DNA of 64,000 nucleotides from Halopiger goleimassiliensis. GTDB taxonomy: Archaea > Halobacteriota > Halobacteria > Halobacteriales > Natrialbaceae. The translations under genes were made by a program, and so were the position numbers. Location: contig NZ_HG315690.1 in assembly GCF_000455345.1 (NCBI RefSeq), positions 712,815 through 776,814 of the forward strand, read 5' to 3'. The notes beneath the pieces were generated by a model. It was not told where the DNA came from. It saw only the letters and a list, made by a program, of their open reading frames with translations, and ran no database searches. This document shows, one piece after another, positions 6,617 to 12,112 of the stretch; positions within the stretch are counted from its first letter, which is position 1, and each line of letters begins with the position of its first letter.

Positions 6617-9508
6617 ATGACCGACGGGGACGTCGCGGCGTTTACCCACCTCGGATCGACGGTCCGTGGAGCCCTCTCCGAACGCGGGTTCTCGACGCCG
6701 ACGGCACCGCAACGGCTGGCCATTCCGCCGCTCGCCGCCGGGCAGAACACGCTCGTGATCGCGCCCACGGGGAGTGGCAAGACCGAGACGGCGATGCTAC
6801 CGGTGTTCGATCACCTCGTCGCGGACGAGGGTGAGCCGAGTACGTCGGGGCGATCCTCGTCGGAGGAGGCCTCCGACCGTGGACCACCGGACGGATTCGG
6901 CGCGCTCTACGTGACTCCATTGCGGGCGCTGAACCGCGACATGCGCGAACGCCTCGAGTGGTGGGGCGAGTACCTCGACCTCGAGGTCGACGTCCGCCAC
7001 GGCGACACCACCCAGTACCAGCGGGGGAAACAGGCCGAGAACCCGCCGGACGTCCTCATCACGACGCCGGAGACCCTGCAGGCGATGCTCACCGGCGAGC
7101 GACTGCGCGAGGCCCTGCAGGACGTCTCCCACGTGGTGATCGACGAGGTTCACGAACTCGCGGCCTCGAAACGCGGCGCACAACTCGCGGTCGGACTCGA
7201 GCGGCTCCACGATCTCGCCGGACGGTTCCAGCGCATCGGACTCTCGGCGACCGTCGGCGATCCCGAGGAGGTCGGTCAGTTTCTGACCGGTGGCCGGCCC
7301 TGCGAGATCCGCGAGATCGACGTCGGGAGCAACGTCGACGTGACGGTCCGACGGCCGGAGATCACCGACGAGGACGAGGACCTGGCCGGGAAACTGATGA
7401 CCGACGCCAGCACGGCGAGTCACGTCCGGTTGATCCGCGACCTCGTGGCGGAGCACGAATCGACGCTGATCTTCGTCAACACCCGCCAGACGGCGGAGGC
7501 GCTGGGCTCGCGGTTCAAAGAACTGGATCTCCCGATCGGGGTCCACCACGGCTCGCTCTCGAAGGAGGCCCGCATCGAGGTCGAGGACCGGTTCAAGGCC
7601 GGCGAACTCGACGGACTGCTCTGTACCTCCTCGATGGAGCTGGGCATCGACGTCGGCAGCGTCGACCACGTCGTCCAGTACAAGAGCCCCCGGCAGGTGA
7701 CCCGGTTGCTCCAGCGCATCGGACGGGCAGGCCACCGCCAGGACGCCGTCTCGAGCGGGACCATCGTCACGACCCGGCCCGACGACACCTTCGAGGCGCT
7801 GTCGATCGCCCGCCGAGCGCGCGACGGCGAAGTCGAGCGGGCGGCGATCCACGAGGGGAGCCTCGACGTGGTCGCGAACCAGGTACCGGCGATCGTCCAG
7901 AGCCGGGGCGACACCCCCGTTCGCCAGGCCTTCGAGACGATCACCCGTGCGTACCCGTTCCGGCACCTCCCCGAGAAGACGTTCCGCGAGGTGCTCTCGG
8001 AACTCCATCGCAACCGGATCGTCTGGTTCGACGAGGGCGCAGATCGACTGGAGACGACCGGGGGCACCTGGCAGTACGTCTACTCGAATCTCTCGATGAT
8101 CCCCGACGAGGAGACCTACGAGGTCCACGACATCGCCTCGAGCCAGCAGATCGGGACCCTGGACGAACGGTTCGTCGTCAACTTCGCCCAGCCGGGCGAG
8201 GTGTTCGTCCAGCGCGGCGAGATGTGGCGGATCGCCGAGATCGACGACGAGGAGGGCCGCGTGAAGGTGAGTCCGATCGAGGATCCCGCCGGCGAGGTCC
8301 CCTCGTGGATCGGCCAGGAGATTCCCGTGCCCGCCGCGGTCGCCCAGGAGGTCGGCGAGATCCGAGGCGTCGCACGACCGCAACTCGAGACGGGTGCGAG
8401 CGCGTCCGCCGTCGGGCGGGAACTCGCGGGTCGGTATCCCGCGGACGACGTCACCCTCACCGAGGCCTGTGAGCAACTCGAGCGCCAGGTCGAGAGCGAG
8501 TCGCCGATGCCGACGGCCGACCGGATCGTCCTCGAGCGCCAGGGCCGAACGATCGTGATGAACGCCTGTTACGGCCACGAGACCAACGAGACGCTCGGGA
8601 GGGTCCTCTCGGCCCTGCTGGGCCAGCGGGCCGGCTCCTCGGTCGGCCTCGAGACCGACCCCTACCGGATCGAACTCGAGGTGCCGAGTTCGATCGCGAC
8701 CAGTGACGTTCTCGAGGTGCTCGAGGAGACCGATCCCGACCACGTCGAGACTATCGTCGAACTCGGCCTGAAGAACTCCGACGCGCTCGCCTTTCGGCTC
8801 GCACAGGTATCGGCGAAGTTCGGCGCGCTCAAACGGTGGCAGGGCGAGGGCTCGGGTCGGCTCTCGAACGACCGGCTCCTCGCCGCGCTCGAGGATACCC
8901 CGATGTACGAGGAGGCGATCCGGGAGGTCTTCCACGAGGACTTAGACGTCGAGCGAGCGAGCGCCGTGCTCGAGGGGATCCAGTCCGGCGAGATCGACCT
9001 CGTGACCCATCGCGGTCGGACGCCGGTCGGCCAGGGCGGGCGCTCCTCCTCGGGCAAGGAACTGCTCGCACCGGAAAACGCCGACGCGAGCGTGATCGAG
9101 ACGGTCAAGGAACGACTACAGGACGATCGAGTCATCCTGCTGTGTACCCACTGCAAGGAGTGGAAGGTGACGACGAAGGTCAAACGGGTCGCCGACCAGC
9201 CGGAGTGTCCCGAGTGTGGCTCGACCCGGATCGCGTCGCTGAACCCCTGGGCCGACGAGGTCGTGCAGGCGGTCCGCGCCGACGAGAAGGACGAGGAACA
9301 GGAGGAAATGACCGAGCGCGCCTTTCAGGCGGCGAGTCTCGTCCAGAGCCACGGCAAACGCGCAGTGATCGCGATGGCGGCCCGCGGGGTCGGCCCGCAC
9401 AACGCCGCCCGGATCATCAACAAACTCCGCGAGGACGAAGACGAGTTCTACCGGGACATTCTCACCCAGGAACGCGAGTACGCTCGGACCCAGTCGTTCT
9501 GGGATTGA
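6617..9508 (+). CDS. Lhr-type DEAD/DEAH superfamily 2 helicase
   Basis: A 963-residue SF2 helicase. RecA-like domain 1 has motif I APTGSGKTE, motif II DEVHEL and motif III LSATVGDPE. Domain 2 contains the HHGSLSKEAR segment, STSMELGID-like motif V (TSSMELGIDVGSVDHV) and motif VI QRIGRAGHR. The rest (winged-helix and the large Lhr-core domain, with IVLERQGRTIVMNACYG) matches Large-helicase-related proteins, which act in nucleic-acid repair or RNA processing. Near residue 840 two Cys pairs (LLCTHCKEW and CPECGSTR) form a putative zinc site. An Asp/Ser-rich insert (about 75-95) lies between motifs I and Ia. A TTAT element about 29 nt upstream fits leaderless transcription. Confidence 0.88.
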   Translation: MTDGDVAAFTHLGSTVRGALSERGFSTPTAPQRLAIPPLAAGQNTLVIAPTGSGKTETAMLPVFDHLVADEGEPSTSGRSSSEEASDRGPPDGFGALYVTPLRALNRDMRERLEWWGEYLDLEVDVRHGDTTQYQRGKQAENPPDVLITTPETLQAMLTGERLREALQDVSHVVIDEVHELAASKRGAQLAVGLERLHDLAGRFQRIGLSATVGDPEEVGQFLTGGRPCEIREIDVGSNVDVTVRRPEITDEDEDLAGKLMTDASTASHVRLIRDLVAEHESTLIFVNTRQTAEALGSRFKELDLPIGVHHGSLSKEARIEVEDRFKAGELDGLLCTSSMELGIDVGSVDHVVQYKSPRQVTRLLQRIGRAGHRQDAVSSGTIVTTRPDDTFEALSIARRARDGEVERAAIHEGSLDVVANQVPAIVQSRGDTPVRQAFETITRAYPFRHLPEKTFREVLSELHRNRIVWFDEGADRLETTGGTWQYVYSNLSMIPDEETYEVHDIASSQQIGTLDERFVVNFAQPGEVFVQRGEMWRIAEIDDEEGRVKVSPIEDPAGEVPSWIGQEIPVPAAVAQEVGEIRGVARPQLETGASASAVGRELAGRYPADDVTLTEACEQLERQVESESPMPTADRIVLERQGRTIVMNACYGHETNETLGRVLSALLGQRAGSSVGLETDPYRIELEVPSSIATSDVLEVLEETDPDHVETIVELGLKNSDALAFRLAQVSAKFGALKRWQGEGSGRLSNDRLLAALEDTPMYEEAIREVFHEDLDVERASAVLEGIQSGEIDLVTHRGRTPVGQGGRSSSGKELLAPENADASVIETVKERLQDDRVILLCTHCKEWKVTTKVKRVADQPECPECGSTRIASLNPWADEVVQAVRADEKDEEQEEMTERAFQAASLVQSHGKRAVIAMAARGVGPHNAARIINKLREDEDEFYRDILTQEREYARTQSFWD

Positions 9509-9606: not shown

Positions 9607-11601
9607 ATGGATTCCGGTCCCCCTACTCGCCCGGCCGAGAGCGATCGGTCCGCCGCGGCGACGACCGACCGGCTGGGGTCACTCCTCGAGGCCGCTGACA
9701 TCGCCTCGTTCCGGCTCTCCCCGGACGGTACGCTCGAGGCGGTCAACGACGCGTTCACCTCGGTGACCGGCTACACGCGGGACGAACTCCTCGGGACGTC
9801 CTTTTCGCGGCTCACCGACGACGAGTCGCCGACGCCGACCTCGATCGTCGCGAGCGCGGAGACGACGCCGGTGACGAGGACGCTGTCCCTCCGGACGAAA
9901 GCCGGCACCGAACTCACGTGTGACGTTCACCTCGAGCGGGTCGACGCCGGCGACGGGACGACCGCCATCGACGGACTCGTCGATCGACGTCCGGCGGCGT
10001 CGGCGACTGTCGATGCGGCGGGGCTCACCTACGGGAAGACGTTCCAGGCGCTCGCCGACGCGCTCCCCGACGGGATTATCGTCCTCGATACGGACAGCGA
10101 CGTCCAGTACGCCAACCCGGCCGTCGAACGCATCCTCGGCTACACGCCGGACGAACTGGTCGGCTCGAGCAAGGTCCGGATCATCCCGCCGCGGCTCCAG
10201 CAGGCCCACCTGGATTCGCTCCAACGGTATCTGGAGACCGGCGAGCGGAACCTCAACTGGACCTACGTCGAACTCCCCGGCCAGCACAAGGCGGGCCACG
10301 AGGTGCCGCTCGGCGTCTCGCTCAACGACTTCACCTACGAGGGGGATCGGTACTTCGTCGGTCTCTTCCGGGACATCTCGCCGCGCAAGGAGGCCGAACG
10401 AACCCTCCGGGCCAAGGTCGAGCAACTCGAGTCGGTCGCCACCCTCGGGCGACACGCCCTCGAGAACGAGGGGATCGACGACCTGTTCGACGGAACGGTC
10501 GATCTGGTGGCCTCCTCGCTCGACGCCGACCACTGCGCCGTGCTCGAAGACCGCGACGGGGAACCGGGCCTCGTGCCTCGAGCCGGTACCGGAGACGCGT
10601 TCGACGTGGCCGGCGACGCCCTCGAGGCGCTCGAGTCGGTCGCCGCCGAGGCGCTGGCCGCGAGCGAGCCGATGGTCGTCGAAGACGTCACGGGGGCCGA
10701 CTGGTTCGACGAATCGAGTGGTTCCGCCGCCGTGCGAAGCGTCGCCGTCGTCCCGATCGGCGCGACGACGCCAACCGGCGTCGTGGCCGTCTGGAGCCCG
10801 ACCGAGACGGCGTTTGCCGACCACGACGTGGACTTCCTCGAGAGCGTCGGCACGATCCTGACGACCGGCATCGAACGCCAGGAGTACGAACGCCGGCTCA
10901 ACGAGACCGTCGACGAACTCGAGGCCTCGAACGAACGACTCGAGCAGTTCGCCTACGCCGCGTCCCACGACCTGCAGGAGCCCCTGCGGATGATCTCGAG
11001 CTACCTCCAGTTGGTCGAGCGCCGTTACGCCGACCAGTTGGACGAGGACGGCGAGGAGTTCATCGCGTACGCCGTCGACGGGGCGGAGCGACTACAGGCG
11101 ATGATCGACGGCTTGCTCGAGTACTCCCGAATCGACACCCAGGGCGATCCGTTCGAACCGGTCGACCTCGAGGCCGTCCTCGCAGACGTCCGAACCGATC
11201 TGCAGGTGCTGATCGAGCAACACGATGCGACGGTCAGGGTCGAATCGCTTCCGACGGTCTCGGGCGACCCCCGGCAGTTGCGGCAACTGTTCCAGAACCT
11301 GCTGTCGAACGCGATCCAGTACAGCGGCGACGAGCCACCGCGGATCGAGGTCTGGGCCGATCGAACGGGTAGCGGCTGGGAGATTTCGGTCCAGGACGAC
11401 GGGATCGGCATCGATCCCGACGAGATCCACCGGGTGTTCCAGGTGTTCCAGCGACTGCACAGCCGTGAGGAGTACGACGGGACCGGTATCGGGCTCGCGC
11501 TGTGTCAGCGCATCGCCGAACGCCACGACGGCGACGTTCACATCGACTCCGAACCTGGCGTCGGAACCACCGTGACGGTCACCCTCCCGGCAGCCGAGTG
11601 A
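9607..11601 (+). CDS. PAS-PAS-GAF sensor histidine kinase
   Basis: A 664-residue kinase without membrane segments, so cytoplasmic. Domain order: PAS 1 (about 25-135), PAS 2 (about 140-260, with YANPAVERILGYTPDELVGS), GAF (about 275-430), HisKA (about 440-510) with phospho-accepting H454 in ASHDLQEPLRM, and HATPase_c (about 545-664) with N box NLLSNAIQYS, G1 DDGIGIDPDEI and G2 GTGIGLALCQ. All kinase residues look intact. It is followed after 118 bp by a receiver-only protein that lacks the acceptor Asp. In haloarchaea such PAS/GAF kinases usually sense small molecules or redox; the ligand here is unknown. Confidence 0.9.
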   Translation: MDSGPPTRPAESDRSAAATTDRLGSLLEAADIASFRLSPDGTLEAVNDAFTSVTGYTRDELLGTSFSRLTDDESPTPTSIVASAETTPVTRTLSLRTKAGTELTCDVHLERVDAGDGTTAIDGLVDRRPAASATVDAAGLTYGKTFQALADALPDGIIVLDTDSDVQYANPAVERILGYTPDELVGSSKVRIIPPRLQQAHLDSLQRYLETGERNLNWTYVELPGQHKAGHEVPLGVSLNDFTYEGDRYFVGLFRDISPRKEAERTLRAKVEQLESVATLGRHALENEGIDDLFDGTVDLVASSLDADHCAVLEDRDGEPGLVPRAGTGDAFDVAGDALEALESVAAEALAASEPMVVEDVTGADWFDESSGSAAVRSVAVVPIGATTPTGVVAVWSPTETAFADHDVDFLESVGTILTTGIERQEYERRLNETVDELEASNERLEQFAYAASHDLQEPLRMISSYLQLVERRYADQLDEDGEEFIAYAVDGAERLQAMIDGLLEYSRIDTQGDPFEPVDLEAVLADVRTDLQVLIEQHDATVRVESLPTVSGDPRQLRQLFQNLLSNAIQYSGDEPPRIEVWADRTGSGWEISVQDDGIGIDPDEIHRVFQVFQRLHSREEYDGTGIGLALCQRIAERHDGDVHIDSEPGVGTTVTVTLPAAE

Positions 11602-11688: not shown

Positions 11689-11696
11689 TATTATAC
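11689..11696 (+). promoter_or_regulatory. TATA box of the receiver-domain gene
   Basis: TATTATAC lies 28 nt (centre) upstream of the ATG at 11720, a near-consensus archaeal TATA. It implies that the receiver gene is transcribed on its own as a leaderless mRNA rather than only by read-through from the kinase. Confidence 0.55.
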
Positions 11697-11719
11697 CAAA
11701 TCGTGCCGGATCTAGGACG

Positions 11720-12112
11720 ATGCCATCTCAGACCGTGCTCCTCGTCGAGGATAGTGATTTTCTCACCGCCCACGTCAGCGAAACGCTACGATCGGAGCAC
11801 GGATTCGATATCGAAACCGCCGAATCGGCGGCGGAGACGCGATCCGTTCTCGAGGACGGTGGAATCGACTGCGTGGTCACGAACTACGAACTCCCCGACG
11901 AGACGGGGATCGACCTCGCAGCGTCGCTGGCCGAGATCGGTGGCGCAAGCGACGTCCCGGTCGTCCTCTTTACGGGAAATTCGATCGAATCCCTCGCAGA
12001 GGAGGCCCTCGAGGCGGGCGTCTCGGCGTTCGTCAGCAAGAGCAGTCGGGCGTCGGGCGACATGAACGTCTTCGCCAATCGTATCCGGCTCGCGATCCAG
12101 GCCAACGAGTGA
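11720..12112 (+). CDS. Receiver-only protein with Asn at the phospho-acceptor site
   Basis: A 130-residue CheY-like receiver with no output domain. The acidic pocket (E10/D11 in LLVEDSDF), the switch Thr (T85 in LFTGN) and the conserved Lys (K107 in FVSKSS) are all present. The acceptor position in VVTNYELPDETG is N55, codon AAC at 11882-11884, where active receivers of this type read TDYxLP. It therefore should not accept phosphate at that site. It sits just downstream of a complete hybrid-free histidine kinase and has its own TATA box. It may be an atypical, phosphorylation-independent receiver, or a recently inactivated one. Confidence 0.88.
   Translation: MPSQTVLLVEDSDFLTAHVSETLRSEHGFDIETAESAAETRSVLEDGGIDCVVTNYELPDETGIDLAASLAEIGGASDVPVVLFTGNSIESLAEEALEAGVSAFVSKSSRASGDMNVFANRIRLAIQANE

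Follow-up and report, generated by a model that had tools for sequence, protein, structure and literature searches.

A stand-alone receiver family of Halobacteria without the phospho-acceptor aspartate in an otherwise conserved pocket

The gene at 11720-12112 (+ strand, stop included) of the window, by which we mean the whole stretch of 64,000 nucleotides of Halopiger goleimassiliensis DNA that was analysed, encodes a stand-alone receiver of 130 amino acids with Asn at the phospho-acceptor position, as judged from a Pfam match, a structure model and family data. To go by the sequences of its relatives, the family to which it belongs carries a single lesion within an otherwise intact switch. 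On balance we lean towards the view that this is an old and conserved family of stand-alone receivers in Halobacteria, which would have lost the Asp once, on its stem, and would now act as a phosphorylation-independent binding module.

The window receiver and its relatives

Response_reg is the sole Pfam match of the protein at E <= 0.001 (E 8.2e-18; 65 bits against a cut-off of 30.2). It spans residues 6-110 of 130, and there is no output domain, so that by Pfam the protein is of the CheY-like, REC-only kind. Its place among the PF00072 receiver domains follows from the profile score above cut-off and from the (beta-alpha)5 fold, which is complete in the AlphaFold2 model (pLDDT 84.4) and has receiver domains (PhoP, KdpE, QseB) as its top Foldseek matches. 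In this model residue 55 closes strand 3, T85 closes strand 4 and K107 comes after strand 5. The codon AAC at 11882-11884 (+) gives Asn at residue 55, the phospho-acceptor position according to the translation and the family alignment. E10, D11, T85 and K107 are all present, so the initial annotation was right in naming Asn as the acceptor residue and in describing the rest of the active site as kept; F104 is present too. Measured against the canonical phosphorylated receiver (DD, D, T, K), the protein has the acidic pair, T and K and lacks the D. With Asn55, and with Asp in 0/48 members of the family, it falls among the aspartate-less receivers (ALR/PsR). The same genome has 18 Response_reg matches, one of them slightly under the Pfam cut-off, and six of these have no Asp by alignment; the window receiver is the only one of the 18 in which the absence of Asp is combined with an acidic pair, Thr and Lys. 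A second aspartate-less receiver of this genome (L148, G000:C1:2245905-2246267) carries Glu as its acceptor residue, and its second acidic position is taken by Pro.

At least 48 stand-alone members were found, that of the window included: 29 genes in its own family, Natrialbaceae, and at least 19 elsewhere in the order. Counts over 48 members take one row per gene and genome, the window included. Within Natrialbaceae a clear orthologue is present in 29 of 125 genomes, the window's own among them. The other 28 show 57-75% identity (weakest E 2.5e-39), and no further match was found below those 29 in the 125 genomes, down to the limit of 1e-22; named relatives include Natrarchaeobius and Salinadaptatus, both Natrialbaceae. 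Profile searches gave at least 19 member genes in 15 genomes from three other families of the same order. Sampling across the class put the family in 39 of 391 genomes. The profile had matched 42, and three were set aside (G184, G191 and G198, near 116 bits, with Asp present in ORFs of 530-569 residues); the weakest family member scored 141.5 bits, against a profile model that itself included members. A phylum-wide sample of 392 genomes gave 10 positives, all from the same order. As a control, 20 lower-ranked profile hits were sampled, and all 20 have Asp and a Tyr at K-3, in ORFs of 410-1056 aa; these hits are not strictly consecutive in the ranking, some ORFs seen before or looking alike having been skipped and G184 having been chosen from the class-wide list. 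Two further Asp-bearing relatives are REC-PAS-kinases by Pfam.

Acceptor position and evolutionary history

Residue 55 is Ser in 25 of the 48 members, Asn in 20, Thr in two and Lys in one, and never Asp or Glu; in the 47 members other than the window the acceptor codons are AGY, AAY, ACG or AAA. All 48 have D11, T85, K107 and G63 together with an acidic residue 10 (Glu or Asp), and F104 is present in 45. The initial annotation had named Asp in all close relatives as the result that would speak against it, and the outcome was the opposite, with Asp in 0 of the 47 relatives found. On the conservation of Asn55 the answer is divided: the absence of Asp is universal among the 48, but Asn itself is unusual nearby, where 27 of 29 family genes have Ser or Thr. 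Deamidation of Asn to Asp, raised in PMC4395418, is unlikely to be the working mechanism of the family, given that Ser, Thr or Lys stands at residue 55 in 28 of 48 members. The member with Lys (L185:6728-7087, - strand) has the codon AAA, one base off an Asn codon.

All 25 members with Ser as acceptor encode it by AGY, whereas AGY accounts for 113 of the 304 other Ser codons of these genes; an origin of the acceptor Ser from AAY would give this bias. One origin of Ser suffices on the tree, so that the pattern counts as one event and not as 25. In trees built with the acceptor column removed, the 48 members make up one side of a branch (98/95 against 24 Asp receivers, 98/96 against 44), the outgroup being a sample of the nearest Asp receivers and not the whole superfamily. 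The acceptor states need five changes in both trees. Parsimony on the 24-outgroup tree would place a change from Asp to Asn on the stem and one from Asn to Ser within the window's family, with Ser to Thr and Asn to Lys as further predicted steps, once each. The Asn of the window then looks like a return from Ser to the older state; its nearest fork is weak (87/72) and lies inside a supported clade that otherwise has Ser and Thr (95/92). L074, the most divergent member, stands at the end of a long branch, and the single sequences closest to it are Asp receivers. Membership is firm for 47 and borderline for L074.

The genes are under purifying selection. The 20 pairs compared have a median dN/dS of about 0.11 and a range of 0.064 to 0.517, the highest value coming from nine differences, and dN/dS is below 1 in 8/8 compared pairs from lineages without the kinase at the locus. 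On the family tree the columns of D11, T85 and K107 show zero changes. The acceptor column shows four, against a median of 6.5, and 50 of 130 columns have four or fewer; as it is a moderately slow column, selection on residue 55 itself is not proven.

The helicase locus and other gene neighbourhoods

The receiver gene lies 118 bp behind a histidine kinase gene (9607-11601, +) with the Pfam domains PAS-PAS-GAF-HisKA-HATPase. The initial annotation had called this kinase complete, and indeed it has HisKA and HATPase_c, with H454, the N box at 564, G1 at 597 and G2 at 625. Further upstream is a gene for an ATP-dependent helicase (6617-9508, +), which we take to be Lhr-like; its best NCBIfam match, NF010338, gives 486.8 bits, under the cut-off of 849. 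Whether the kinase intervenes or not, the helicase gene precedes the receiver locus in 26 of the 29 family genomes. Nine of the 29 family genes adjoin the kinase, 17 follow straight after the helicase gene without an intervening kinase, two are elsewhere and one is at a contig edge. The two displaced receivers belong to G136 and G148, the copy in G148 lying beside a HerA-like ATPase; in G136 the kinase is found behind the helicase gene on another contig, with no receiver there. At the helicase-receiver loci (L066-L082 and L115-L124) the kinase gene is missing from between the two in 17 of 29 genomes, and other genomes have helicase and kinase without receiver. Seen from the kinase, the helicase gene is upstream, inside the fetched flank, in 27 of 28 loci (L087-L114). 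The helicase locus looks like a site of repeated loss of either the kinase or the receiver gene.

A TATA-like promoter element, TATTATACC, at 11689-11697 (+) starts 31 nt before the ATG. All 26 upstream regions that were compared from the window's family have A/T at -29, rows L083, L084 and L116 being left out of this group, as against only 68% of the 19 other rows, which have ATG. The promoter that had been assigned to the receiver gene thus stands as a TATA-like element conserved in the window's family, and is weakened by its lower conservation outside it. The element suggests that the receiver gene may have a transcript of its own.

Beside some members are a HerA-like ATPase, Hjc, a DUF7504 protein, a protoglobin-MCP and a PAS-kinase. 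There are three separate settings in which a member lies just behind a HerA-like ATPase (L084:4557-6407, -), an Hjc Holliday-junction resolvase (L178:5841-6404, +) or the window helicase (6617-9508). In L179, from the sister genome of the Hjc locus, no Hjc-like ORF was found upstream among the ORFs listed. A DNA-repair theme of helicase, HerA-like ATPase and Hjc is not claimed, as the loci are few and were picked post hoc and L179 has no Hjc-like ORF listed; a DNA-repair link of these receivers is possible but weak. In genus g78 the receiver comes after a DUF7504 protein and a second protein with coiled-coil-like matches (L170:7254-9853, -; L171:7376-9802, -), the DUF7504 Pfam match being that of L170. 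A HemAT-like protoglobin-MCP transducer is encoded downstream of the borderline member (L074:12664-14103, +). Grouping of neighbours by all-against-all clustering was too noisy to be used beyond the helicase and kinase adjacency counts.

Possible modes of action and known systems

It is extremely improbable that the gene is decaying or that its Asn is a sequencing error. AAC and GAC are one base apart, but the family data refute this explanation, with 47 relatives without Asp, their frames open and the median dN/dS low; a misread between Ser and Asn in the window is conceivable, but it would not restore Asp. The preference of the initial annotation for an atypical receiver over decay is thus upheld by the absence of Asp in 48/48, the invariant D11, T85 and K107 and the same median. 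Its proposal of a partner for the kinase fared less well. That the window receiver is a dedicated, phosphate-independent partner of the adjacent kinase, either inhibitor or scaffold, would fit the order helicase-kinase-receiver in 9 of 29 genomes and the 118 bp gap in the window, but is doubtful in view of the 17 genes with no kinase there and of the selection seen in all eight pairs of such lineages. Moreover, a kinase orthologue is present in 10 of 29 receiver-bearing genomes and is kept by 32 of 96 receiver-free ones, which is no association (Fisher p = 1.0, kinship ignored); the kinase-positive set of 42 among 125 was read by hand, as 38 genomes at E <= 1e-160 and four with two-piece matches. 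In the 20 loci of members outside the helicase locus no close relative of the window kinase was found, and there was one weak kinase match. With adjacency in only 9/29 and co-occurrence independent, receiver and kinase do not form a conserved gene pair, the receiver does not as a rule stay beside the same kinase, and partnership with it fails as a general role. An obligate pairing is ruled out by gene neighbourhoods and co-occurrence together, and the receiver gene is kept without this kinase, given the 17 loci that lack it and the independent occurrence. Receiver and kinase may still interact where both are present.

Other explanations turn on the pocket. A Ser/Thr kinase or, as an unusual case, a histidine kinase might phosphorylate a Ser or Thr at 55 or 54 and so give a stable on-state, the Asn members using position 54. 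Ser or Thr occupies residue 55 in 27 of 48 members and residue 54 in 39 of 48, the phosphate-binding Lys and Thr are invariant, and in CheY D57N a neighbouring Ser can be phosphorylated. We nevertheless hold this to be improbable, because residue 55 is Asn in 20 members and Lys in one, and because residue 54 is Val or Ala in nine of 48, and all 24 Asp receivers compared have Ser at that position as well. It is also unlikely that the pocket is a non-covalent sensor of Mg2+ or of a phosphorylated small molecule. In its favour, D11, T85 and K107 are retained in 48/48 yet the nucleophile is absent, whereas ALRs at large, by the figures in PMC4395418, keep an acidic triad-2 in 29%, a basic residue at the Lys position in 70% and both Y/T residues in 44.5%; on the other side, these residues may be structural. 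As a tentative possibility, the whole lineage may have made the switch non-covalent, the metal- and phosphate-binding pocket persisting in each member found and Asn, Ser or Thr having permanently replaced the nucleophile. The pocket would then be a sensor of Mg2+ or of a phospho-anion, or else bear a stable phosphate on Ser/Thr, which would make this a candidate metal-binding aspartate-less receiver.

The phosphorylation-independent binding module is the reading that we prefer. After the loss of Asp the rest of the switch, namely the acidic pair, the Thr, the aromatic switch residue and the Lys, would have been retained; the receiver would no longer be switchable by Asp phosphorylation and would work as a protein-binding module whatever its phosphorylation, its dose being governed by a promoter of its own. 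Mg2+ or an anion may still bind in the pocket, or D11, T85 and K107 could be kept for folding instead. The receiver probably docks on kinases or REC-PAS-kinase proteins as a competitor or adaptor, a role suggested by ancestry alone. The family seems to descend from the REC domains of REC-PAS-kinase proteins: among Asp-bearing proteins its nearest kin are REC domains encoded within long ORFs, of which two are REC-PAS-kinases, so that kinases or REC-PAS-kinase proteins are the likeliest partners. Counting against the preferred reading, the Ser or Thr at residue 55 of 27/48 members would be phosphorylatable by other kinases.

ALRs or pseudo-receivers of PF00072, which share with this family a receiver fold without the phospho-Asp, are a known kind (PMC4395418; PMC12632262). 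The haloarchaeal family belongs to them by definition; it is new and sharply bounded, and its pocket is unusually intact. Halobacteria are already listed as rich in such receivers (PMC4395418), Asp is kept in most stand-alone archaeal receivers according to the 2018 archaeal census (PMC5847659), and the authors of a 2025 review state that they are not aware of any functional study on an archaeal one (PMC12632262). In the literature searched on archaeal Asp-less or atypical haloarchaeal receivers no description of the family was found, and it may sit among the unlabelled sequences of PMC4395418 or PMC5847659. With one lesion only, in a small protein spread over several families of one order, it offers a clean test case, and nature supplies for comparison Asn, Ser, Thr and Lys versions as well as species that have the neighbouring kinase and species that lack it.

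Among ALRs at large, as given in PMC4395418, Glu is the commonest substitution, Asn the second and Ser the third, and a pocket metal ion has yet to be identified in any of them. In contrast, the haloarchaeal family has Glu as acceptor in 0/48 and keeps D11, T and K in 48/48, and it is stand-alone and archaeal. RitR of Streptococcus pneumoniae is an ALR with Asn53 and thus shares the Asn acceptor, but its triad-2 residue is Lys, Asp stands in place of the Thr, and it carries a DNA-binding domain (PMC4395418); the window receiver has none of these features. Profile score and tree agree in making the REC domains of haloarchaeal REC-PAS-kinases (PMC5847659) the closest kin found that bear Asp; they lie within kinases, have Asp and mostly Tyr at K-3, whereas the Asp-less family is stand-alone and has Phe there in 45/48. 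Osp of Rhodobacter sphaeroides is likewise a single-domain, receiver-like protein, and it acts unphosphorylated on the kinase CckA; it keeps Asp and is without the acidic pair and Lys (PMC9430884), a lesion opposite to that of the haloarchaeal family. The pseudo-receivers of ShkA and CikA inhibit their kinases (PMC12632262), and together with Osp on CckA they are bacterial precedents for action in the unphosphorylated state.
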